The notes: generated by a model from the sequence alone, not told the origin. 32,159 nt of DNA from Phycisphaerales bacterium (GCA_016742055.1 JACVCK010000009.1:1-32159), one strand, 5' to 3'; positions 1,801 to 19,150 are shown, counted from the first letter of the stretch. A program made the numbers and translations.

Positions 1801-1828
1801 TTGACAATGCGGCGTGAGGGGTTAGGGT
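1801..1828 (+). promoter_or_regulatory. sigma70-type promoter of the cobalamin riboswitch operon
   Basis: A perfect -35 box TTGACA (1801-1806) is followed after 16 nt by TAGGGT (1823-1828). A start of transcription about 6-7 nt downstream would fall at 1834-1836, exactly where the P1 stem of the riboswitch begins. That agreement supports the call, although the -10 box is poor. Confidence 0.6.
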
Positions 1829-1833
1829 GGTTG

Positions 1834-2041
1834 ACGTCAATGGTGCCCCGCGAGACGAGCGCGGGGTGAAAAGGGAAGGCGGTGAAAATCCGCCGCGGAC
1901 GCGCCGCCGTAACGAGCGAGAAGGCGCGCCCCAGATGCCACTGTCCGGAATCGGCTTCGGGCCGAGCGGACGGGAAGGCGGGGCGCGACGCGGAGCCGAA
2001 GGGCTCCGATCGCTCGAAGCCGGAAGACCTGCCGTTGATGT
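1834..2041 (+). promoter_or_regulatory. cobalamin (vitamin B12) riboswitch
   Basis: The segment carries the conserved blocks of a class I cobalamin riboswitch in order: GGTGCCCC (1842-1849), GGGTGAAAAGGGAAGGCGG (1863-1882), the GTGAAAATCCGCC core, the CGCCGCCGTAAC block, GCCACTGTCC (1937-1946), GGACGGGAAGGCG (1968-1980) and AGCCGGAAGACCTGCC (2018-2034). The ends pair as stem P1: 1834-1840 with 2035-2041 (seven pairs, one G-U). Known biology: such RNAs lower expression of B12 uptake, synthesis or B12-independent genes when cobalamin binds. Here it precedes a four-gene cluster of mostly secreted proteins. The ligand form (adenosyl- or methyl-cobalamin) cannot be read from sequence alone. Confidence 0.94.
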
Positions 2042-2048
2042 GTGTTGT

Positions 2049-2100
2049 GCGCCCTCGCGACTCGGGGCGCCGGCGCGGCGCCCGCGTGCTCTCCGCGGGC
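2049..2100 (+). promoter_or_regulatory. possible expression platform: two hairpins after the riboswitch
   Basis: Hairpin one pairs 2049-2054 with 2065-2070 (GCGCCC/GGGCGC, 10-nt loop). Hairpin two pairs 2080-2086 with 2094-2100 (GCCCGCG/CGCGGGC, 7-nt loop). Neither is followed by a T-run, so a factor-independent terminator is not evident and control at translation or by Rho is more likely. Hairpin one is in the position of the P13 stem whose loop kisses L5 in cobalamin riboswitches; this was not modelled. Confidence 0.35.
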
Positions 2101-2194
2101 CTCCCGTTCCGGCATCCGATCCTCCGACGCGAGACATTCTCAGGCGGGAGCCGTCCTGCGCGATTCAGGGCGACGGAAGGAAGGACTGTTCGGC

Positions 2195-3238
2195 ATGGTC
2201 TTTGGCAACTGGCGGGGCGGCCTCGGCGCCGCGGTCGTGGCGTCGTCGGCGTTGGCCGGGGCGCCGTCGTATTCCCTGGTTGGCTCGTTCACGACGCCGG
2301 ACGGCGCGGGGGCCCGGACGCTGACATCGGACGGGCGGATGCTGACGATGGTGGGCGCGGACGTTTTTCTCCAGGATGCTCCGCTGTCGGGCTCGTTCAC
2401 GCGGCTGGGGGGAATCGACGCTTCGCTCCTCAATTCGTTCGGCGCGTCGTGCGTGGCGCTGAGTCCGGACGGCTCGACGCTGGCGATCGGCGACGGCAAC
2501 TTCGGGCCGGGCAGCCGCGTTCACTTCGTGTCGTTCGCGGACCTGAACGGCGGCGGCGCCGCGCCGGTGTGGAGCGTGGATGCGGCGTCGTACGAGGCGC
2601 ACTGGCACGCTGATGGGCGGCTGTTCCTGAGCGGCGCGGACTTCACTGATTCGTTCGTTTCGGTGGTCGAGGGCGTGGAGCGCGGCGGCGCGACGGTGCG
2701 GCGCGTGGTGGAGAACATCGTCGGCGCGTCGGCGGGCGTGACGGTGCGGGATGGCTGGGTGTACACGGCGAACGGATTTGATTTCGATCCGGGCTCGGGC
2801 TCGGGCATCGGCGATGTGCGGGCGTTCGACCTGGGGATGCTCGGGGCCGGCGGCTCGTTCGACTTTGAGAGCGACGGCGTGCTGGTCGCCAGCGCGCTCA
2901 GCGGACTGTCGCTGGGCTTTGACGGCGCTGGGAACATGCTGATCGGGGGCGGGGACTTCGGCGATCCGGCGCAGTTCGGGTTTGCGGCGGTGGTGGACGG
3001 AGGGGCGATCTCGGCGGCGCTGATGGGCTTGGGCCCAGCGGGCGACGCGGACGAACTCCGGCTGAGCCCCGCGGGCCAGAACACCTACTCGATCCTGTTC
3101 AACGGGGGCACGCAGGAACTTCTGGTGTGGGGATTCGGCGACGGGCTGGTGCACCGCTACGCGGTCCCGACGCCGGGCGGCGTGGCGTGCGTCGGCTTGA
3201 TGATGGGTCTGGCGGCCGGGAGGCGGCGCCGTGGCTGA
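2195..3238 (+). CDS. secreted propeller-like protein with PEP-CTERM-like tail, first gene of the riboswitch operon
   Basis: This is a 347-residue protein. The ATG at 2195 is chosen because it has the ribosome site GGAAGGA (2176-2186 region) and a signal peptide (hydrophobic 10-22, cleavage near ALA-GA). Upstream in-frame codons run back towards the riboswitch and look non-coding. The mature part is beta-rich with repeated phrases typical of propeller blades, such as ALSPDGSTLAIGDG (88-101), WHADGRLFLSG, GVTVRDGWVYTANGF, GFDGAGNMLIGGG and LRLSPAGQNTYSI. The C-terminus is PTPGG, a hydrophobic stretch, then GRRRR, like the PEP-CTERM variants of Phycisphaerae that mark exosortase-type surface sorting. 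No named family is certain. It overlaps the next gene by 8 bp. Riboswitch control and secretion suggest a cobalamin-related surface role, perhaps comparable with the beta-propeller BtuG of Bacteroides, but this is inference. Confidence 0.75.
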   Translation: MVFGNWRGGLGAAVVASSALAGAPSYSLVGSFTTPDGAGARTLTSDGRMLTMVGADVFLQDAPLSGSFTRLGGIDASLLNSFGASCVALSPDGSTLAIGDGNFGPGSRVHFVSFADLNGGGAAPVWSVDAASYEAHWHADGRLFLSGADFTDSFVSVVEGVERGGATVRRVVENIVGASAGVTVRDGWVYTANGFDFDPGSGSGIGDVRAFDLGMLGAGGSFDFESDGVLVASALSGLSLGFDGAGNMLIGGGDFGDPAQFGFAAVVDGGAISAALMGLGPAGDADELRLSPAGQNTYSILFNGGTQELLVWGFGDGLVHRYAVPTPGGVACVGLMMGLAAGRRRRG

Positions 3239-4439
3239 GTTGCGAACCGTTCGGAGGAGAGAGCGCGCCCGATCCGCGGGGCCCGCGGCGATCTTCGCCG
3301 CGGGCCTCGCGGGGACCGCGGCGACGGGCGCGCGCGCCGGCGACTTCGCGTCGCTTGTGCACTCGTACGTGCCCGCGCCGGGGCAGAACATCAACTCGCC
3401 GTTCTTCGGCGACCCGACTCGCGCGCTGGGCGCGCCGGTGGGAGGCGGGACGGGCGCGGCGGACAATTCCAAGGTCGTGACGCTCGGGGGCTTTGGAGGG
3501 TCGATCACGCTGGGGTTTGACGCGCCGGTCGAGGACAGCCCGTGCAACCCGCACGGCATGGACGCGATCGTGTTTGGCAACGCGTTCTGGGTGAACGGCA
3601 ACCCGAACCGGCGCTGGGCGGAGGCGGCGGTGATCGAGATCAGCGCCGACGTGAACGGCAACGGGCTTCCGGACGATCCGTGGTATGTGGTGAAGGGCTC
3701 GAGTCTTCCGGCGGCGCCGCAGGGCGTGTGGCGGGAGCAGGCCTGGGACAACGCGCCGGGCACGCCGACGCCGCCGGTGAACGTCGCGTGGTATCCGATG
3801 GCGCCGCAGTTCCCCGCTTGGCCGTCGGGGTACGCGACGGGGGCGTTCGAACTGCCGGCGCCTTTCCGGGCGAGCGTGCTGGTGAACCCCAACGGTCTGG
3901 GCGCGACGGTGGAGGGGCACTTTGGGTACGCGGATGTGAGCCCGGTGATGCTGCTGGGCGACATGAGCGGCGCGACGGGAGGGACGGGTGAGAATCTGCT
4001 GAGCGATCCGGAGGACCGGCCGGGCGTGGATCCGGCGGAGTTCTACACCGTGCCCGACGATCCTCGCGCGGTGGGCGTCTCGCCGGGCAGCGGCGGCGGG
4101 GACGCGTTCGACATCCAGTGGGCGGTGCATCCTGCGACGGGCGAGCCCGCGGGGCTGACGCACTTCCATTTCATCCGCATCAGCACGGCGGTGGATGTGG
4201 TTTCGCCGTCGCTCGGGGAGACGTCCACGGAGATCGCCGCCGTGGCGGACGTTCGGCGGGCGCGCCGGTCGCCGGGCGATGCGAACCTCGACGGCGTGGT
4301 GGACTTCGCGGACCTGAACGCGGCGCTGAGCCAGTTCAACACGTTCGGCGAGGGTCTGAGCGCCGACTTCGACTGCAACGGCGTGGTGGACTTCGGCGAT
4401 CTGAACGCGGTGCTCTCGAACTGGGGCGCCGGGACGTGA
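3231..4439 (+). CDS. secreted protein resembling Bacteroidetes B12-locus surface proteins, with C-terminal dockerin-like repeats
   Basis: This 402-residue protein starts at GTG 3231, overlapping the previous stop by 8 bp. A signal peptide runs to about residue 36 (Arg-rich start, hydrophobic 18-33, ARA cleavage). The body contains GGFGGSITLGFD (86-97), DAIVFGNAF (111-119), a DVNGNGLPDDPWYVVKGSS segment (140-158), FGYADVSP (231-238), FDIQWAV (293-299) and LGETSTEI (328-335). I recall closely similar phrases in annotated cell surface proteins of Bacteroidetes B12-uptake loci; no search was run. Residues 349-402 hold two calcium-loop repeats (DANLDGVVDFADLNAAL and DFDCNGVVDFGDLNAVL) of dockerin type, common on planctomycete exoproteins. 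It may bind cobalamin or a cobalamin-binding partner at the cell surface; that is inference. Confidence 0.78.
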   Translation: MAELRTVRRRERARSAGPAAIFAAGLAGTAATGARAGDFASLVHSYVPAPGQNINSPFFGDPTRALGAPVGGGTGAADNSKVVTLGGFGGSITLGFDAPVEDSPCNPHGMDAIVFGNAFWVNGNPNRRWAEAAVIEISADVNGNGLPDDPWYVVKGSSLPAAPQGVWREQAWDNAPGTPTPPVNVAWYPMAPQFPAWPSGYATGAFELPAPFRASVLVNPNGLGATVEGHFGYADVSPVMLLGDMSGATGGTGENLLSDPEDRPGVDPAEFYTVPDDPRAVGVSPGSGGGDAFDIQWAVHPATGEPAGLTHFHFIRISTAVDVVSPSLGETSTEIAAVADVRRARRSPGDANLDGVVDFADLNAALSQFNTFGEGLSADFDCNGVVDFGDLNAVLSNWGAGT

Positions 4440-5236
4440 GGCGCCGTCGCGGATTCACGCTCGTGGAGGCGCTGGTGACGGTCGCCGTGCTGGGGCTTCT
4501 GATCGGGGTCCTGGCGCCGTCGCTGGGGGCGTCGCGCGATTCCGCCCGGGCCGCGGCGTGCGCGGCGGCGCTGCGGGAGTTGCAGGTCGCGAACCTCTCG
4601 CACGCGGCGTCATCGAACGGGCGGTTCGTGGCGGGCGCGGCGAACATCGAGGGCGCGAACCTCGAGCGTTGGCACGGTCGGCGGGAGGCCGTGGGCGAGC
4701 CATTCACGCCGGAGGGCGGGGCGCTGTCGGCGCATCTGGGCGGCGCCGCGACGAGCGAAGCGCTGCGGGAGTGCGCGGGCTTCACGTGGTCGGAGGTTGG
4801 GCCGGAGGCGCCGGGGTTCGAGCGCGGGGGCGGGGGATACGGGTACAACAACGCGTTCGTGGGCGTGGTGCGGAGCGAGCGCGGGGGCGTGTGGGAGATC
4901 GAGACCAATCGGGTGGGTTCTCGTCAGGAGCGCTTTGCGAGGCCTTCGGCGACGGCCGCGTTCACGGACGCGGGTTTCGCGGCGGACGCGGGCCTGATCG
5001 AGTACTCGTTCGCGGAGCCGCCGGAGTGGCCGGAGCATCCCGGGTCGCGTCCGGACCCGTCGGTGCATTTCCGGCATCGGGGGCGGTCGGGCGTGGCGTG
5101 GCTGGACGGGCATGTGACGTCGGAGGCGCGGGCGTTCTCGGCGTGGAGCCAGTTGTATCTGAGCGACCCGGGGCCTCTGGGGCTGGGCTGGTTCGGGCGC
5201 GAGGCGGACGGCAACGCGCTGTTCGATTACGAGTGA
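4436..5236 (+). CDS. prepilin-like protein with H-X9-DG motif (DUF1559-like)
   Basis: This is a 266-residue protein. The GTG at 4436 overlaps the preceding stop as GTGA. The N-terminus MRRRRG-FTLVEALVTVAVLGLLIGVL is a type IV prepilin/pseudopilin signal: cleavage after Gly6 by prepilin peptidase, Glu at +5 of the mature protein, then a membrane helix. Near the C-terminus FRHRGRSGVAWLDGHV carries an exact H-X9-DG motif, typical of the large planctomycete DUF1559 pseudopilin-like family. At 266 residues it is within the usual range. Such proteins sit in the membrane and project outwards, but their function is unknown. Its translational coupling to the two secreted proteins puts it under the cobalamin riboswitch. 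Confidence 0.82.
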   Translation: MRRRRGFTLVEALVTVAVLGLLIGVLAPSLGASRDSARAAACAAALRELQVANLSHAASSNGRFVAGAANIEGANLERWHGRREAVGEPFTPEGGALSAHLGGAATSEALRECAGFTWSEVGPEAPGFERGGGGYGYNNAFVGVVRSERGGVWEIETNRVGSRQERFARPSATAAFTDAGFAADAGLIEYSFAEPPEWPEHPGSRPDPSVHFRHRGRSGVAWLDGHVTSEARAFSAWSQLYLSDPGPLGLGWFGREADGNALFDYE

Positions 5237-5243
5237 GGCGCGC

Positions 5244-5480
5244 GTGTCAGAGGTGAACCGATGCGTCTGCACTGGGCTGACGTTCGCCGAGTTGTCGCGC
5301 CATCCTGCGGCGGGCTCGGGGTTCGAGGCGCTGCGGCGCGCGACCGGGTGCGGGGAGGGCTGCGGGCTGTGCGAGCCGTACGTGCGGGCGATGCTCCGCA
5401 CGGGCCGCCCGTCGTTCCGGGCGCTGGCCCCGTGCCTGAGCGGGGGGGAATCGGGCCCGGCGGGGGGCGGGGCCCGCTGA
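5244..5480 (+). CDS. small BFD-like [2Fe-2S] protein
   Basis: This is a 78-residue protein with start GTG 5244, preceded by GAGG and 7 bp after the prepilin-like stop. Cysteines C7-x-C9 and C40-x2-C43 have the spacing of bacterioferritin-associated ferredoxin (Bfd; C-x-C, about 31 residues, C-x2-C), in the context RCVCTGLTFAEL and GCGLCEPYV. An extra C36 lies just before the second pair. Bfd-type domains carry a [2Fe-2S] cluster and pass electrons. It is the last gene of the riboswitch-led set, so it is probably made when cobalamin is scarce; a role in reducing cobalamin or in iron release are both possible and neither is shown. GTG 5253 is an alternative start. Confidence 0.72.
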   Translation: MSEVNRCVCTGLTFAELSRHPAAGSGFEALRRATGCGEGCGLCEPYVRAMLRTGRPSFRALAPCLSGGESGPAGGGAR

Positions 5481-9288: not shown

Positions 9289-11055
9289 ATGTACGACGTC
9301 GTCATTGTTGGCGGCGGGCCCGGCGGCTCCACGGCCGCGGCGCTGCTGCGCAAGTATGCGCCGTCGCTGCGTGTGCTCGTCCTCGAGAAGGAGCGTTTCC
9401 CGCGCGACCACATCGGCGAGAGCCAGTTGCCCTCGATCAGCCCGATCCTGGACGAGATGGGGGTGTGGGACAAGGTCGAAGCGGCTGGGTTTCCGATCAA
9501 ACTCGGGGCGTCGTACACATGGGGCAAGGACGCGGACCAGTGGGACTTTGACTTCTACCCGGTCGAGAAGTGGCGCGATGAGCCGCGGCCCGCGCGCTTC
9601 GAGGGGCAGCGCAAGTTCACGGCGTTCCAGGTGGACCGGGCGATCTACGACGAGATCCTGATCGACCACGCCGCGGAGTTGGGCGCGGAGGTGCGTGAAG
9701 GGACGCTGGTCCGAGATGTCGAGGTTGACGGCGACCGCGTCGTCGCGGCCACGCTGGATTCGGGCGAGCGCATCTCGGCGCGTTGGTTCATCGACGCCTC
9801 GGGCAATGTCGGCCTGATCCGGCGGGCGCTGAACATTTCCGTGGACGTCACGGAGGAGTTGAAGAACATCGCGATCTGGGACTACTGGCAGAACGCCGAG
9901 TGGGCGGACAAGATCGGCGTCGGCGGCACCCGAGTGCAGGTGCGCTCGCTGCCCTACGGGTGGATGTGGTTCATTCCTCTCGGCCCGACGCGCACGAGCC
10001 TGGGCCTGATCTGCCCCGCCGAGCACTTCAAGAAACTCGGCAAGACGCCGGAGGAACTGTACCTGCAGGCCATCTCCGAGCAGGAGCAGATCGCCTCGCT
10101 CACGGCGAAGGCGACGCGCGAGATGAAGCTCGAGGCGACGAAGGACTGGTCGCAACTGGCCGAGCGGATCGTGGGCGAGAACTGGTTTCTCGTGGGCGAA
10201 GCGGCGGGGTTTGCGGACCCGATCCTGGCGGCGGGGATGTCGCTGACGCATTCTTCGGCGCGGGACGCGGCGTACACGATCATGGAGATTGATCGGGGCG
10301 AGTTGGACGGCAAGTGGCTTCGCTCGCGCTACAACGAGCGGCACCGCACCAACATCGAGCAGCACATCCGCTTCGGTCAGTACTGGTACTCGGCGAACGG
10401 CTGCTTCACCGACCTGCAGGACCACTGCAGGCGGATCGCGGGCGAGGCGGGGCTGAAACTCGATCCGAAGAAGGCGTGGGCGTGGCTGGCGCAGGGCGGG
10501 TTCATCTCCGAGTCGCTGGGCCTGCCGACGTTCGGCTCGTTCGACATCGCGTCCGCCAAGCAGGTGCTCGAGCGGTTCGACGCCGGCGGCCCGAGCCGAC
10601 AGGTCGGCACGATGGTCAGCGGATACAACGTCTTCCAGTTGAACCTGCGCGGCGCCGTGAAGGGGCGCGTGGGGCATCTGGTGGACGGGCGGATCAGGCC
10701 GATCGAGTGCTGGACGCGTGGCGAAGCGACGCTGCCGCTGGTGGGCATCTACGGGGCGGTGGTGGACATCCTGCAGCGCACGAGCGACGCCAAGGAGATC
10801 TTCGGGATGTTCACGTCCCTGGTCGGCGCTTCGGGGACGCCGGACGGCGCGATGGGCACGCGCGTGAGCGCGTTCATCTCGGCGTTGGATGTGATGATCG
10901 AGCAGTTCTGGGTGACGAGGTCGCTCGATAAGAAGAAGCCGGCGGTGCGCATCGACCTGGGCGACACGCGGCACATGCGGACGCGCGAGCAGGGCGCGGC
11001 CGCGGGCGTCAGCGCGGGGGCGCCGACAGCGGAGACCCCAGGAAGCGGATCATGA
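9289..11055 (+). CDS. flavin-dependent halogenase-like / NAD(P)-FAD oxidoreductase
   Basis: This is a 588-residue protein starting at ATG 9289; GTG 9271 is an in-frame alternative and neither has a clear ribosome site. The Rossmann FAD motif VVIVGGGPGGSTAA is at 5-17. HIGESQLPSISPILDEMG (41-58) and KLGASYTWG (71-79) follow the pattern of flavin-dependent halogenases, and Lys71 could be the conserved Lys. WMWFIP (225-230) fits the W-x-W-x-I-P signature that separates halogenases from flavin monooxygenases. The second FAD motif is LVGEAAGFADPILAAGMSL (301-319). The substrate is unknown, no biosynthetic cluster surrounds it, and a reductase of the geranylgeranyl-reductase superfamily is the alternative. 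Its 3' end overlaps the convergent kinase gene by 47 bp. Confidence 0.72.
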   Translation: MYDVVIVGGGPGGSTAAALLRKYAPSLRVLVLEKERFPRDHIGESQLPSISPILDEMGVWDKVEAAGFPIKLGASYTWGKDADQWDFDFYPVEKWRDEPRPARFEGQRKFTAFQVDRAIYDEILIDHAAELGAEVREGTLVRDVEVDGDRVVAATLDSGERISARWFIDASGNVGLIRRALNISVDVTEELKNIAIWDYWQNAEWADKIGVGGTRVQVRSLPYGWMWFIPLGPTRTSLGLICPAEHFKKLGKTPEELYLQAISEQEQIASLTAKATREMKLEATKDWSQLAERIVGENWFLVGEAAGFADPILAAGMSLTHSSARDAAYTIMEIDRGELDGKWLRSRYNERHRTNIEQHIRFGQYWYSANGCFTDLQDHCRRIAGEAGLKLDPKKAWAWLAQGGFISESLGLPTFGSFDIASAKQVLERFDAGGPSRQVGTMVSGYNVFQLNLRGAVKGRVGHLVDGRIRPIECWTRGEATLPLVGIYGAVVDILQRTSDAKEIFGMFTSLVGASGTPDGAMGTRVSAFISALDVMIEQFWVTRSLDKKKPAVRIDLGDTRHMRTREQGAAAGVSAGAPTAETPGSGS

Positions 11056-13168
11056 CGTCGCGGTTGGAGCGGCCCAGGAACCAGAGACGCGCGTCCGTGT
11101 AGGCCTCGCCCGCCGGGTGGTCGATCAGGCAGCGTTCGTAGAGCGTGCGCAGGCGCTCGCCGATGAGGCGCTGCATCGGCGCTGCGTCGATCGAGCGCCG
11201 GACGGCGGTCCAGGAGTCTTCGAGCCGTCGCGCGACGGCGCAGGCGGCGAGCCGGTCGGTGGACGGGCCGTGTTCGATGATGCGGTTGGCGTCCACAACG
11301 GCGCGGAGGGCGGGGAACACGGCTGCGATCGGGTCGTCGGCGCCGAAGCGGGTGTGGAAGGCGGGCTCGACGTTGTCCAGCGCCGCGGTCACTGCGTCCG
11401 TCTGGCCCTGGTGCGCGCGCCAGAAGGCGCCCTGCATGGCCCAGGAGATGGCCTCGAACGAGTCGGCGCCGCCGAGGGCGATGGCGTCGTCGCGTCGGAA
11501 CTCTGCGTAGCGGGCTCGGAACTCGGCGCCGAGGAGGAGGAAGTGGCTGCCTTCGACCTCGTCCCGAGCCATGAAGGAATCAAGCGACAGGACGGCGGCG
11601 AGCACATCGCTGGCGGGCTGAGCGGCGGACGTATCGTAGAGGCGCTGGAAGTCCCGGCGCAACTTGTCGCCCACGACCTCGCGGTAACTGCGGGTCGGGC
11701 GTGCGCGGAGGTCGGCCATGGCCGCGGCGGCCCGGGCGCGCTCGGATTCGAAACGGAAGTGCGCCGCAGTCCAGACTCCTGCGACGGTGAGGGCCGCGAC
11801 GGCGAGGATGGCGGCGGCGACTCCGGGGCGGCGCCGGATCCAGAGGCCCGCGACGCGGAGGGCGGAGGGCTTGGTCCAGGCGATGGGCTCGCGTCGTCGC
11901 CAGGCGTCGAGGTCGTCGGCGAGTTGTCCGGGCGAGGAGAACCTGCGGCGGATGTCGGGGTCGAGCGCGCGCCGGCAGATCGCGTCGAGGTCGGCGTCGA
12001 TCTTCGGGAGGGCTTCGCGCGGCGACGGGGCCGGTCGGCGCTCGCCGGCCATGTGGGCGGCGACGACTTCGTCACGGGTGGACCCGTTGGCCAGGCGCCC
12101 GGTGAGCAGCCAGAAGAGGATGCCGCCCAGGGCGTAGACGTCCGCCGGCGGCGCGAGCGCCCCGGGCTCCATCCGAAACTGCTCGGGGGCCATGAACGCG
12201 AGCGTGCCCACGGGCCGGCGCGGCGCGCCGGGGCGGCGTTCGTCGTCGTGGCGGGTCGCGGCGCCGAAGTCGGCGACCTTGGGGACGCCCTCGCGCGTCA
12301 GCAGGATGTTGCCGGGCTTGAGGTCGCAGTGCACGAGGCCGGCGGAGTGCGCGGCCTGGACGCCCCGGGCGACTTCGCCGACCAGGCGCGCCGCTTCGCG
12401 CGGGTCCATCGGCAGGCGACCGGAGAACACGGGGGAGGACATGTCGCCGCCGGCGACGTACTCGTAGACGAGGTACTCCTCCCCCTGGTCCGTCGTGCCC
12501 CGGTTCAGCGCGCGCACGACGTTGGGATGGTCGATGCGTCGGGCCTTTGCGGCCTCTTCCACGGCTTGCCGGCGCGACCATGGGTCGGCGCGGTCGAGGC
12601 GGAGGATCTTGATGGCGGCCATGGCGGCGTGGGCGTCGTCGGAGAGGAGGCGGTCTTCGGCGAGGAAGACGTCGCCCGACGCGCCGTCGCCCAGGCGGCG
12701 AAGGAGCCGGTACTGGCGAGCGCCGCTGGCGGTCACGGGCCCGAAGTCGGACGGGAGCGTGCGTTCGCCCGTGGCGGCGGGCGCGATGTCGAGGGTGTTC
12801 CAGATGGCCTGGCCCAGCGCTGCGGCGTCGCGGATGGAGCCGGCGAGCGCGGGGTAATTGGCGACGAGCGTTTCGACGGCGTCGGGGGTTGGCGAGGATC
12901 CGCCGCTGAGGGATCGGAGGGCCATGTCGATGGCGGCGTCGAGAGCGATGGGGCGTTGTTCGAGGTTGGGCGCGGCGTCGAGGTAGGACTCAAGTTCGAT
13001 CGCTTCACCCCTGCTGAGCCGGAAGCGTCCGTCGACTTCGATGAGTTCGGCGAGGAGCGCGTCGTCGGGGCTGACCCCTTCGAGGAATTCGCGCAGGGTG
13101 AGGCGCCCTTGGGAGCCATGGAGGCGCGCGAGCAGCGCGTCGGTCGGTCTGGGGTCTGGGGCGATCAT
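11009..13168 (-). CDS. transmembrane Ser/Thr protein kinase (non-RD), coupled to ECF sigma factor
   Basis: This is a 719-residue protein. Residues 1-140 are an N-terminal helical region of unknown role. The kinase domain (about 153-425) has glycine loop LGDGASGDVF, ATP-anchoring Lys187 (AAIKIL), catalytic loop H280-C-D-L-K-P-G-N with Asp282, D300-F-G, and APEQ. The residue before the catalytic Asp is Cys, so this is a non-RD kinase and may not need activation-loop phosphorylation. One membrane helix (449-469) follows, then an extracytoplasmic or helical tail of about 250 residues. Its ATG shares one base with the stop of the sigma-factor gene (TGATG), so the two are translated together. Planctomycete kinases are often paired with ECF factors; phosphorylation of this sigma factor is inference. 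Confidence 0.9.
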   Translation of the reverse strand: MIAPDPRPTDALLARLHGSQGRLTLREFLEGVSPDDALLAELIEVDGRFRLSRGEAIELESYLDAAPNLEQRPIALDAAIDMALRSLSGGSSPTPDAVETLVANYPALAGSIRDAAALGQAIWNTLDIAPAATGERTLPSDFGPVTASGARQYRLLRRLGDGASGDVFLAEDRLLSDDAHAAMAAIKILRLDRADPWSRRQAVEEAAKARRIDHPNVVRALNRGTTDQGEEYLVYEYVAGGDMSSPVFSGRLPMDPREAARLVGEVARGVQAAHSAGLVHCDLKPGNILLTREGVPKVADFGAATRHDDERRPGAPRRPVGTLAFMAPEQFRMEPGALAPPADVYALGGILFWLLTGRLANGSTRDEVVAAHMAGERRPAPSPREALPKIDADLDAICRRALDPDIRRRFSSPGQLADDLDAWRRREPIAWTKPSALRVAGLWIRRRPGVAAAILAVAALTVAGVWTAAHFRFESERARAAAAMADLRARPTRSYREVVGDKLRRDFQRLYDTSAAQPASDVLAAVLSLDSFMARDEVEGSHFLLLGAEFRARYAEFRRDDAIALGGADSFEAISWAMQGAFWRAHQGQTDAVTAALDNVEPAFHTRFGADDPIAAVFPALRAVVDANRIIEHGPSTDRLAACAVARRLEDSWTAVRRSIDAAPMQRLIGERLRTLYERCLIDHPAGEAYTDARLWFLGRSNRDVMIRFLGSPLSAPPR

Positions 13169-14838: not shown

Positions 14839-14994
14839 GGCGGCTTGCAAGGGGTGGATTTGTTTCGGAGTGTTATGGGCTGCGGCCTCCCCCTCGGATG
14901 GGGGCTCCGCGCCCAGCCCTGACCGCTGGGGACGTTCGGCTTCCACCGCCCATCCCCGGCGCCCAGCGTGCGCCCCTCTTGCGCTGAACCCGGC

Positions 14995-17613
14995 ATGACC
15001 CCAGACCAGGACCTTCCGACCAATCCCGGCGAGAACCCCACGACGCCCGCGTCGCCGGGCTCTGGCCCCCGTTCCGGAACCGGCGCCTCCACGGCGCGCG
15101 AGCCGCTGCCCGAGCGGATCGGCGGCTACCGGGTGGTGCGCGAGTTGGGGCGCGGCGGCATGGGCGTGGTGTACCTGGCGCGCAAGGACGACGACCGCTT
15201 CCAGCGCACGGTGGCGATCAAGGTCGTCAAGCGCGGGATGGACACGGAGGACATCGTCCGCCGCTTCGAGACGGAGCGGCAGTTGCTGGCGGCGATGGAC
15301 CATCCCAACATCGCGCGGCTGCTGGACGGCGGGACGACGGAGGACGGCCGGCCCTACTTCGTCGTCGAGCACATCGAGGGCAAGCCGATCGACAAGTACT
15401 GCGACGAGAACCGGCTGAGCGTCGGGGAGCGTCTGCGGCTGTTCCTGAAGGTGTGCTCGGCGGTGCACTACGCGCACCAGAATCTGGTGGTGCACCGGGA
15501 CATCAAGCCGGGGAACATCCTGGTCACGAAGGAGGGCGAGCCGAAACTGCTGGACTTCGGCATCGCGAAGTTGCTGAACCCGGCGTTCGCGCCGGTGGCG
15601 CAGGACCCGACGTCGCCCTCGCTGCGCCTGATGACGCCCGAGTACGCCAGCCCGGAGCAGGTGCGGGGCGAGATGGTCGGCACGGCCAGCGACGTGTATT
15701 CGCTGGGCGTGCTGCTGTTCGAGTTGCTGACGGGGCACCGGCCCTACCGGCTCAAGACGCGCCTGCAGAGCGAGATCGAACGGATCATCTGCGAGGTCGA
15801 GCCCGAGAAGCCCAGCACGGCGGTGAGCAAGGTCGAGGAGATCGCGAGCGTCACGGGCTCCACGTCGATTACGCCGGCCTCGGTGGCGCTGACGCGCGAG
15901 AAGCGGCCCGACCGCCTCCGCCGCCGCCTCGAGGGCGACGTGGACAACATCGTGCTCATGGCGCTGCGCAAGGAGCCCAGGCGGCGGTACCAGTCGGCCA
16001 TGCAGTTCGCGGAGGACATCCGCAACCACCTCGAGGGCCGGCCGGTCATCGCGCGGCGCCCGACGCCGATCTACCGCGCGGCGAAGTTCGCGCGGCGGAA
16101 CCGTTACGGAGTCGCCGCGGCCGCGGCGGTGTTCCTGGCGCTGCTGCTGGGCGTGATCGGCACGAGCATCGGCATGCAGCGCGCGGTGGCGGCGGAGAAG
16201 GCCGCGGTGGCGCAGCGGGACCGGGCCGAGCGGCTGTTCGCCGAGGGGCGCGCGCTGGCCAACGCGTTCATCACGGAGTTCATGGACGCGGTCAAGCAAC
16301 TGCCGGGCTCTGTGGCGGCGCAGGAGTTGATCGTCCAGAAGGGCCTGGCGTACCTGGAGGGCGCGTCGGCGGAGGCCGGGGATGACCCGGCGTTCGTGGC
16401 GGAGTTGCAGCGCGGCTACCTGCGGATCGGCGGCATCCAGAGCGCGCTGCAGGGCAGCGGGCGGATGGACCGCCGTGCGGCGGAGGCGACGTTCCTGCGG
16501 GCGCGCGACATCGTGGACGAGGCGCGGGCGCGTCTGCGGACGCCCGATCCCCGGTTGACGGCCGGGGCAGGCCTGGCGCGTCTGCAACTGAGCCAGGTGT
16601 ACGAGGCGGTCAAGGAGCCGCTGAACGCCCGTCGGAATCTTGAGGAGGCGATCCCGCTCCTGCGCGAGGCGTCGCAACAGGGCGTCGACGTGCAGCGCCC
16701 GCTGCGGCTGGCCGAGTTGCAGCACGGCGACCTGCTGATGGACGCCGGGGATGTGGAGGCGGCCGCACGCTCGTTCGAGCAGTCGCTCACGGCGCGCGAG
16801 CAGGTCGTGGCGAGCGAGCGGACGCAGACCTCGCTGCGCGACCTGAGCACGATCCACAACCGGCTGGGCGACGTGGAGATGCGCCGCGGGCGCCATGCGC
16901 AGGCGGTGGAGCGGTACCGTGCGGCGCGGGACCTTCGCGTGGAGATCGAGCGGATGGAGCCCTCGGGCGAGCCGACGGCGCGGTCCATCCGCGACATCGC
17001 GATCTCGCGGTGGCTGCTGGCGCGTGCGCTGCAGCGGACCGGCGACCTGGAGGCGGCCGAGCGGGAGTTGCGGGCGGCGCACGGCGCCATTCGGCAACTC
17101 ACGGAGGCCGACCCCAACGACAGGCGGGTCGAGATGGACCTGGTCAACATCAGCAACACGCTGCAGCAACTCCTGACCGCCCAGGGCCGGCACGACGAGG
17201 CCGAGGCGGCTCTGCTGCCGGCGCTCGTGGCCACGGAGCGCGCCATCCTCACCCGGACGGACGATGCGGCGCTGCAGGAGCGGCTGGCCGACCTCCTGGC
17301 CGAGTACGGGCACCTGCGCACGCTGACCGGCGATCCGCGCGCGGCGCTGGCGTCGGTCGATCGGGCGCTGGTCATCATCGAGCGGCGGCGCGCGGAGAGC
17401 CCCACCAGCGCCTCCCTGCGGCTGACCTACGCCGGGATGCAGCGCATCCGCGCCAACGCGCTCATCGCCCTCGAGCGGTGGGACGAGGCCGAACGGAGTC
17501 TGACGCTCGCCCTTGATGCGGCCAACGCTCCCGACGTTCGGGCGGACGCCACGACGCTGATCGCGGAGATCGAGGCGTCGCTGCGGGACGTGGCGGCGCG
17601 TCGCAGGCCCTGA
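14995..17613 (+). CDS. transmembrane Ser/Thr protein kinase with helical-repeat (TPR-like) tail
   Basis: This is an 872-residue protein. After a Pro/Thr-rich N-terminus (1-40), the PknB-type kinase domain (about 45-350) has LGRGGMGVVY (51-60), Lys76 (VAIKVV), HRDIKPGN (167-174), D187-F-G, and the APE equivalent TPEYASPEQ. It is an RD kinase with all key residues. Around 255-310 is an insert rich in charged and Ser/Thr residues. One membrane helix spans about 373-393. From 400 to the end the protein is helical with repeated Ala/Leu/Glu patterns, as in the TPR tails of planctomycete kinases. The gene converges with a phosphatase gene 34 bp away. Confidence 0.93.
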   Translation: MTPDQDLPTNPGENPTTPASPGSGPRSGTGASTAREPLPERIGGYRVVRELGRGGMGVVYLARKDDDRFQRTVAIKVVKRGMDTEDIVRRFETERQLLAAMDHPNIARLLDGGTTEDGRPYFVVEHIEGKPIDKYCDENRLSVGERLRLFLKVCSAVHYAHQNLVVHRDIKPGNILVTKEGEPKLLDFGIAKLLNPAFAPVAQDPTSPSLRLMTPEYASPEQVRGEMVGTASDVYSLGVLLFELLTGHRPYRLKTRLQSEIERIICEVEPEKPSTAVSKVEEIASVTGSTSITPASVALTREKRPDRLRRRLEGDVDNIVLMALRKEPRRRYQSAMQFAEDIRNHLEGRPVIARRPTPIYRAAKFARRNRYGVAAAAAVFLALLLGVIGTSIGMQRAVAAEKAAVAQRDRAERLFAEGRALANAFITEFMDAVKQLPGSVAAQELIVQKGLAYLEGASAEAGDDPAFVAELQRGYLRIGGIQSALQGSGRMDRRAAEATFLRARDIVDEARARLRTPDPRLTAGAGLARLQLSQVYEAVKEPLNARRNLEEAIPLLREASQQGVDVQRPLRLAELQHGDLLMDAGDVEAAARSFEQSLTAREQVVASERTQTSLRDLSTIHNRLGDVEMRRGRHAQAVERYRAARDLRVEIERMEPSGEPTARSIRDIAISRWLLARALQRTGDLEAAERELRAAHGAIRQLTEADPNDRRVEMDLVNISNTLQQLLTAQGRHDEAEAALLPALVATERAILTRTDDAALQERLADLLAEYGHLRTLTGDPRAALASVDRALVIIERRRAESPTSASLRLTYAGMQRIRANALIALERWDEAERSLTLALDAANAPDVRADATTLIAEIEASLRDVAARRRP

Positions 17614-17647: not shown

Positions 17648-19150
17648 TCACGCGTCGAGCGGGATGCTGATCTCGACGACGAGGGTGTCGTCGGCCGGGG
17701 GGCCGAAGCGGAACTGGTCCACGCTCTGGAGCACGGCTGCGGCGACGGCGCCGGAGCCAGCTTCGCCGTTGAGGCCGGCGATGATGCGTTGCAGGCCGTC
17801 GATGCGGAGCATGCGCCCGTCCCGGTCGCGCGCTTCGGTGGCGCCGTCGGTGTAGGCGATGAGCACGTCGCCCGGGCCGAAGGGCATGCCTTCCTGGCCG
17901 TGCTGGAAGTCGTCGCCGTGTGCGGCGCCGAGCACGAAGGCGGTGGAGTCGAGCCGGTGGATGGCGCCGTCGAGCGTGCGGATGAAGGCGGGCGGATGGC
18001 CGCCGGAGGCCCATTCGAGGGTGCCCACGGTTCGTCCGCCGTGGCCCTTGCCGGAGGGGTTGGGATCGACGCGCGCGCAGAGGGCCGTGACGTAGACGCT
18101 GTGGGAGGCGAGGGTGAGGTGGATGTAGCGGTTGAGCGCTTCGAGGATCCGTCCGGGGGGCGCCTCGGGCTCTTCACCGAAGAGGCGGTCGAGTTCGCCG
18201 TAGAGGCGGTTGACGGTCAGCGCCGCGGGGATGCCGTGCCCGGTGACGTCGAGGATGACGACGCTGAGCATGGGCATGGGGCCCCGGGGCGAGGGGCAGA
18301 AGCGTGAGTAGAGGTAGTCGCCGCCGATCTGGCGCATGGGCTCGTAGCGGTAGTGGAGCCGGACGGGGCCTTCTTCGATGGGCTTGGGGAAGAGGGCCTC
18401 GTGGATGCGCCGGGCGTCGGTGAGTTCCTGGCGCATCTCGCCGTAGCGGCGCTTGAGGGCGCCGTACTGGAAGCGGCTGTGGAATCGGGATTGCCGCCAC
18501 CAGCAGATCGCGGCGCCGGGCACGGCGACGAAGGGCGAGGCGAGAATCGCCACGAGCGGCCCCACCCAGCCGGAGGCGTACACGATCACCAGCAGCGCGT
18601 GCACCACGAGCAGCGGCACGATCGGCCGGATCGACTCCCGGGCCGTCCACGGCAGGAACATGCACGCGAAGAAGTGCGTGAAGAAGATGCCGGACAGCAG
18701 CGAAGCCGATGCCAGATCGCCGGCGGAGAAGGGCTGTCCCGCCGGCGTCATCACGCGGCTGACGAACTCGACCTGCACGATGCCCGCGGCGAAACCGAGC
18801 ACGCCATTGATGACGATCAGCCAAAACACCAGCCGCAGGAGCGATTCCCGCGCCAATAGGTGCTTCCGGACGTACATCAGCGCGGCGATATAGAGGACCA
18901 GCCCGGGGACGCTCAGAAGAGCGACGATGGCGGCGCCGATCCGGGTCGCGCGGATGACGCGGGCCTTTTCGTCTTCAGGCACACCCCCGACGCTGATCCC
19001 GAACCCAAACGCCGGCACGAGAGTCACGAGAACAGAGAGGCCGCTGAGCACAAGCACGACGCTCGCGTACCACAAGAACCGCCGGCGGAGCCAGCGCTCG
19101 CGGGCCAGTTCGAATTCCTCGCGAAACTCGCTCGTGAAGGTGGAGGTCAT
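17648..19150 (-). CDS. membrane-anchored SpoIIE/RsbU-type PP2C phosphatase
   Basis: This is a 500-residue protein. Residues 25-215 contain about six membrane helices with no recognised sensor family. Residues 228-258 form a likely signalling helix or coiled coil. The PPM/SpoIIE domain (about 262-498) has the metal-binding GGD278Y, ILD301VTGHGIPAAL, WASGGHPPAF, a YTDGATEARD motif and a final ADDTLVV motif. This family removes phosphate from Ser/Thr of anti-sigma-antagonists or other partners. The convergent kinase at 14995 makes a kinase/phosphatase pair; there is no STAS or anti-sigma gene nearby. Confidence 0.93.
   Translation of the reverse strand: MTSTFTSEFREEFELARERWLRRRFLWYASVVLVLSGLSVLVTLVPAFGFGISVGGVPEDEKARVIRATRIGAAIVALLSVPGLVLYIAALMYVRKHLLARESLLRLVFWLIVINGVLGFAAGIVQVEFVSRVMTPAGQPFSAGDLASASLLSGIFFTHFFACMFLPWTARESIRPIVPLLVVHALLVIVYASGWVGPLVAILASPFVAVPGAAICWWRQSRFHSRFQYGALKRRYGEMRQELTDARRIHEALFPKPIEEGPVRLHYRYEPMRQIGGDYLYSRFCPSPRGPMPMLSVVILDVTGHGIPAALTVNRLYGELDRLFGEEPEAPPGRILEALNRYIHLTLASHSVYVTALCARVDPNPSGKGHGGRTVGTLEWASGGHPPAFIRTLDGAIHRLDSTAFVLGAAHGDDFQHGQEGMPFGPGDVLIAYTDGATEARDRDGRMLRIDGLQRIIAGLNGEAGSGAVAAAVLQSVDQFRFGPPADDTLVVEISIPLDA

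Follow-up and report, generated by a model that had tools for sequence, protein, structure and literature searches.

A cobalamin riboswitch in Phycisphaerales precedes genes for a BtuH homologue and a riboswitch-linked pseudopilin, which points to cobalamin acquisition

What does a cobalamin riboswitch control if the genes behind it encode surface proteins and not a classical vitamin B12 transporter? This question is raised by positions 1801-5480 of a 32,159-nt stretch of DNA from a Phycisphaerales bacterium (GCA_016742055.1 JACVCK010000009.1:1-32159; the whole stretch is called the window), which belongs to a metagenome-assembled genome (MAG, G000) of 2.59 Mb and 69.8% completeness. Based on sequence, predicted structure and gene neighbourhood, on which all functional assignments given here depend, we are largely confident that the four genes of this region form an operon for cobalamin acquisition. 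An earlier prediction made from the DNA alone (the original prediction) had placed a cobalamin riboswitch upstream of these genes, and the covariance model RF00174 matched positions 1824-2050 (+) over its complete length (1-189) with 97.2 bits in cmscan, well above the gathering threshold of 31.5 bits. The E-value of 2.6e-23 together with the full-length model rules out a chance match. The P1 helix, as read from the sequence, is formed by ACGUCAA and UUGAUGU at 1834-1840/2035-2041 with one G-U pair, exactly as predicted. The element is a cobalamin riboswitch, with predicted cobamide binding and gene control, and the sole one found in the MAG. The four genes at its 3' side (2195-3238, 3231-4439, 4436-5236 and 5244-5480) are indeed tightly packed: genes 1 to 3 overlap by 8 and 4 bp, and 7 bp separate genes 3 and 4.

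The answer to the question starts with gene 2 (3231-4439, +). A phmmer search against the PDB matched this protein to BtuH2 (BT_1956, 7biz; 2e-18) and to BtuG1 (also BtuGH; BT_1490, 8blw; 4.5e-18) of Bacteroides thetaiotaomicron, and a profile of 35 orthologues yielded E-values of 1.1e-27 for 7biz_A (profile positions 15-306) and 1.8e-36 for 8blw_B. In a Foldseek search with the AlphaFold model (predicted local distance difference test, pLDDT, of 89.7) the same two structures were the sole solved matches at E <0.001 (8blw_B, 5.9e-15; 7biz, 1e-13; probability 1.0). As judged from sequence and model, gene 2 encodes a protein homologous to BtuH, with which Bacteroides binds B12 at its surface; the earlier view that the four genes include no known B12 protein is therefore wrong. 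According to the alignments to BtuH2 and BtuG1, the BtuH-type domain spans residues about 39-343 (3345-4259, +) and is followed by a dockerin-like C-terminal segment (residues about 344-402; 4260-4436, +). The proposed dockerin stays below the cut-off of NCBIfam dockerin_GC (21.8 versus 29 bits), although the model of this segment resembles solved dockerins (Foldseek match to 2y3n_B). BtuH2 binds B12 with picomolar affinity (PMC8941943), and the G and H halves of BtuG1 each bind the vitamin experimentally (PMC8941943, PMC12751083). The alignments as printed pair the BtuH2 contacts Q333, N399, F401 and Y510 with Q52, N117, F119 and Y233 of gene 2, which are kept in 29, 35, 21 and 30 of 35 proteins, respectively. 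On these grounds gene 2 probably binds a cobamide.

To see how general this arrangement is, we compared 81 genomes, i.e., G000 and 80 relatives. RF00174 was present in 75 of them, nearly always as a single copy. The 73 riboswitch loci analyzed comprise the window, 31 loci also matched by gene 2, 40 loci for which the riboswitch was the sole criterion (L065-L104, the unbiased set) and one locus from Hydrogenedentota. A BtuH-type gene was found in 65 of the 73 loci, the prepilin-like gene 3 in 67, the BFD gene 4 in 35 and the propeller gene 1 in 31; the corresponding numbers for the unbiased set are 32, 35, 16 and 0. In the own family of the window (45 loci) BtuH was present in 44 loci, the prepilin in 42 and one of two unrelated propellers (gene 1 type or PQQ) in 43. 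The Hydrogenedentota locus came from a scan of genome contigs; it lies in a MAG and has the same riboswitch with a BtuH-type gene and a prepilin. Homologues of the operon genes thus recur across genera near cobalamin riboswitches, as the original prediction had made its own test, and the 73 loci rule out that the gene order is a local accident. In these relatives no gene accompanies the riboswitch more constantly than that of the prepilin (67/73 loci), which is not a classical transporter. Together, the kinship of gene 2 with BtuH and the recurrence behind riboswitches lend strong support to a surface module that captures cobalamin under control of the riboswitch. The idea of a surface module for B12 capture or salvage consequently holds for the capture part, but the module is not wholly undescribed, because gene 2 belongs to a binder family known from Bacteroides.

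Further secreted proteins occur at this position in related loci. In other families, a secreted protein family with a motif like VIDWNDG...WGYRWDG is encoded by the first gene after the riboswitch and before the prepilin (L086:3544-4629, L097:7426-8250, L087:1-693 and L112:4918-5598, all on the minus strand; in L087 the contig end conceals the downstream genes). It has no Pfam name, one member carries PEP-CTERM, and it is a candidate for a further B12-binding family. In G061 a single frame after the riboswitch (L092:4455-6854, +) combines a weak BtuH-type match with DUF4465, a second known B12-binding family.

The most constant component, gene 3 (4436-5236, +), contains the prepilin methylation motif GFTLVE and a hydrophobic helix. 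It exceeds the cut-offs of PF07963 (29.5 versus 21.2 bits) and TIGR02532 (19.9 versus 16.3 bits), in agreement with the expected prepilin-like membrane protein. Gene 3 is by its sequence a predicted type IV prepilin-like protein, whose processing and filament assembly are putative. A profile of this prepilin was also run against a phylum-wide sample of 149 genomes; 21 genomes scored at least 155 bits, and the next match reached 124 bits. In 15 of the 21 a riboswitch lies upstream on the same strand, at a distance of up to about 3.5 kb. In the tree, the prepilin of the window falls into a clade of 42 rows with a Shimodaira-Hasegawa-like approximate likelihood ratio (SH-aLRT) support of 98, of which 40 are riboswitch-linked, 2 are unlinked and none is generic; a single clade of all riboswitch-linked prepilins is not supported (9 changes). 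The gap between 155 and 124 bits and this clade rule out that the gene 3 family is just any generic planctomycete prepilin. All 7 BtuH-type matches of the phylum sample lie behind a riboswitch, and the one in G090 shows lipoprotein-like, PKD and BtuH parts in the same layout as BtuH2. The distant genomes G136 and G171 have the prepilin and btuFCD genes in one riboswitch operon. In G136 (L118) the genes downstream of the riboswitch encode, in order, DUF4465, a BtuH-like protein, the prepilin, BtuF, BtuD and BtuC. In G171 (L115) the order is btuF, btuC, btuD, prepilin, and the start codon of the prepilin gene overlaps the stop codon of btuD (ATGA). Both operons connect the pseudopilin with the transport of cobalamin by evidence from outside the window. 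In G127 the prepilin has no riboswitch nearby and is followed by an NHL-type beta-propeller (L119:7105-9558, +).

The riboswitch could conceivably govern a surface operon that has nothing to do with the supply of B12 and serves, for instance, adhesion or a pathway that spares the vitamin, and the Pfam searches revealed no B12-specific domain in genes 1, 3 and 4. Against this stand the BtuH homology of gene 2 and the related riboswitch operons, which carry DUF4465, BtuF, BtuD, BtuC or a TonB receptor instead or beside; this explanation is strongly disfavoured and we regard it as highly improbable. A different alternative would make the C-terminal head of the pseudopilin a third B12 binder, with the propeller and BtuH proteins as optional helpers. 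Such a binder would be in line with the constancy of the prepilin (67/73 loci), with its position directly after the riboswitch in G165, G103 and G214, and with the dextran binding of planctomycete pili-like fibres (PMC5394234). We consider it unlikely, however, as neither a B12-binding motif nor homology to a binder was found in the pseudopilin. Moreover, the H-X9-D spacing and such cysteines also occur in generic prepilins.

Gene 1 (2195-3238, +) had been described as a propeller-like secreted protein, and its AlphaFold model (pLDDT of 90) retrieved propellers in Foldseek with E-values of about 1e-8, which supports a beta-propeller fold. It has a PEP-CTERM-like tail (PTP, a hydrophobic stretch and RRRR), which is shared by 24 of 30 orthologues. 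Orthologues occur in 31 of the 81 genomes and are adjacent to the riboswitch every time. In 18 of the 40 unbiased loci (L079, L075, L076, L083 and 14 more) a beta-propeller of the PQQ_2 type with about 500-600 amino acids takes the place of the gene 1 propeller, between the BtuH gene and the prepilin. One of these replacement proteins gave no match against the PDB in phmmer. The two propellers co-occur in no locus, as if they were interchangeable parts. In G048 propeller and BtuH are located in one frame of 861 codons (L055:7441-10023, -) with a PEP-CTERM-like tail and a signal-like stretch in the middle, which could be either a real fusion or the result of a lost stop codon.

Gene 4 (5244-5480, +) encodes a BFD-like [2Fe-2S] protein with four cysteines (CVC, CGLC). 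The expected BFD-type ferredoxin was recovered with PF04324 at 27.1 bits (cut-off 26), and in the loci that hold it the gene is usually located directly 3' of the prepilin. In G069 a frame for a pyridine nucleotide-disulphide oxidoreductase lies downstream of the prepilin and overlaps it (L099:6229-7533, +); a redox function beside the BFD protein is possible.

None of the 81 genomes contains cbiC, a marker for de novo synthesis of the vitamin, G000 encodes four proteins with B12-binding domains, one of them in a frame of the size of methionine synthase, and the host seems to depend on external B12. Permeases of the FecCD family were found in 68 of 69 good genomes, often adjoining BtuF-type proteins, and in the own family they are distant from the riboswitch. 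The TonB Plug domain, searched with the single family PF07715, is absent from the incomplete MAG G000 and from 32 of the 39 own-family genomes with at least 90% completeness. In other families of the order, Plug proteins are encoded directly behind the riboswitch (G073, G060), and in G073 the prepilin and a btuB-like gene are each under a separate riboswitch.

These data bear on an explanation after the Bacteroides model, in which the products of genes 1 and 2, as accessory binders, pass the vitamin to a TonB-dependent BtuB encoded elsewhere and the pseudopilin is just a part of the machinery that exports them. BtuH and BtuG do cooperate with BtuB in Bacteroides (PMC10404256), TonB receptors follow the cobalamin riboswitch in G073 and G060, G073 has separate riboswitches for the prepilin and the btuB-like gene, and the MAG is just 70% complete. 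The lack of Plug domains in G000 and in most of the nearly complete own-family genomes argues against it, and a role in binder export only fits poorly to G171, where the prepilin directly follows btuFCD with no secreted binder in between. We rate this explanation as rather improbable. The cobalamin adenosyltransferase of the window (PduO-type, PF01923, 19201-19803, -) had been joined to the operon as one module. Its presence in the same window is the point in favour, but about 14 kb separate it from the operon, it is encoded on the other strand, and in none of the other loci searched was a PduO gene found near the operon, so that a common module is extremely improbable.

As best explanation for the whole we assume, with good confidence, a cobalamin-acquisition operon in which a BtuH binder, a propeller and a pseudopilin act together with a BtuFCD importer. 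Judged by the general behaviour of the riboswitch family, low cytosolic cobalamin would permit expression of the operon. The BtuH-type protein of gene 2 would then bind cobamides at the cell surface, as its homology suggests, and the anchored propeller of gene 1 may be its partner or a second binder, comparable to BtuG or the G half of BtuG1. The pseudopilin might carry the binders or the vitamin from the surface to the periplasm, as a fibre or as component of a pseudopilus, which is the least certain step. From there a BtuFCD importer, encoded elsewhere in related genomes, would move B12 to the cytoplasm, and the BFD protein could contribute to a cobalt reduction step or act as redox partner. 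Uptake by the operon, as a step beyond capture, is what we infer from this scheme. A role of the pseudopilin in the step between surface and periplasm is suggested by its constancy, by its occurrence in btuFCD operons and by the missing TonB receptors, and as pili-like fibres of planctomycetes bind dextran (PMC5394234), such a role is plausible. We lean towards a participation of the pseudopilin in uptake; that it moves B12 across the outer membrane itself is a tentative idea that we would rather doubt.

Several observations weigh against this explanation. Three corrin contacts of BtuH2 are changed in gene 2, since H476 is not kept, W511 is replaced by A234 and W577 by serine or variable residues, and B12 binding or specificity may therefore differ. 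Taken together with the retained equivalents of Q333, N399, F401 and Y510, the nucleotide-loop side appears largely preserved and the corrin side altered. Gene 1 showed no sequence match to BtuG by phmmer or profile, and BtuG was not among its top 50 Foldseek matches, so that gene 1 as a true BtuG is unsupported. The propeller of BtuG2 has seven blades. As L033-L063 were picked by their BtuH match, only L065-L104 provide unbiased frequencies. The prepilins of the complete genomes G127 and G148 have no nearby riboswitch; even a weaker Rfam threshold revealed none near these two or near those of G191, G120, G154 and G053, which are located on short contigs or close to contig ends. A strong BtuC was not found in the 70%-complete G000 itself, and cbiC is a single marker whose absence is no proof of auxotrophy. 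Finally, the leader between aptamer and gene 1 (2051-2194, +) contains a Shine-Dalgarno-like sequence, GGAAGGAAGGA, at 2175-2185, but no intrinsic terminator was detected by a terminator scan, and as the folds of the leader are not clearly better than those of shuffled sequences, no expression platform was identified. The fitting promoter of the original prediction was likewise not found by a consensus scan; TTGACA at 1801-1806 has only a weak -10 partner.

Outside the operon, a divergent gene 5' of the riboswitch (895-1767, -) encodes a protein with cyclic-nucleotide-binding and DUF1003 domains. One stretch of the window (11009-13168, -; 14968-17613, +; 17648-19150, -) codes for two protein kinases of the eukaryote type and a phosphatase of the SpoIIE type.

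In comparison with known systems, gene 2 shares with BtuH2 and BtuG1 the homologous domain and fold, the cobalamin-riboswitch control, the nature of a secreted surface protein and the residues on the nucleotide-loop side. It differs in lacking a lipoprotein signal and PKD domains, in its dockerin-like tail and in the three lost corrin contacts; moreover, the operon has no adjacent btuB and the host is a planctomycete. The BtuG1/BtuGH fusion resembles the operon in that a beta-propeller and a BtuH domain are co-produced under a cobalamin riboswitch, whereas the window has two separate genes and a propeller without sequence kinship to BtuG, which is swapped for the PQQ type in 18 related loci. 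Binders of the BtuJ/DUF4465 type are also secreted B12-binding proteins in riboswitch operons (PMC13398666). DUF4465 is encoded beside the same prepilin in related loci of G061, G136 and G204 and is absent from the operon of the window; in a term search, the published contexts named TonB and ABC partners and no pseudopilin. Gene 3 resembles the H-X9-DG/prepilin-like proteins of planctomycetes in the N-terminal methylation motif and in the spacing of H209 and D219, but it misses the cut-off of TIGR04294 (9.9 versus 19 bits) and its family stands apart as a high-scoring group with ties to cobalamin riboswitches. The BtuB-BtuF-BtuCD pathway would have the same probable end, cytoplasmic cobalamin, and BtuFCD-type genes accompany the prepilin in G136 and G171; in contrast to this pathway, no TonB receptor was found in operon or MAG, and the importer of the own family is not under this riboswitch. 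In summary, the operon places a binder of known type in an architecture that is new, alongside a pseudopilin linked to the riboswitch. In the open-access papers searched, we found none that joins BtuH or a prepilin with B12 uptake in planctomycetes.

Across the loci searched, what lies under cobalamin-riboswitch control in this order is mostly a pseudopilin together with a BtuH-type binder and not a classical transporter. The range of the BtuH family, known from Bacteroidota of the gut, thereby widens to Planctomycetota of the environment. For the phylum we propose, as a possibility still more doubtful than probable, that a riboswitch-controlled pseudopilin and interchangeable B12 binders bring cobalamin to BtuFCD by a TonB-free route of the pilus type. 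If true, this would be a pilus-type uptake of a vitamin across the outer membrane without a TonB receptor. It is a candidate answer to the question how planctomycetes lacking TonB receptors get B12, and it fits the fibre-based uptake that has been suspected in this phylum (PMC5394234).

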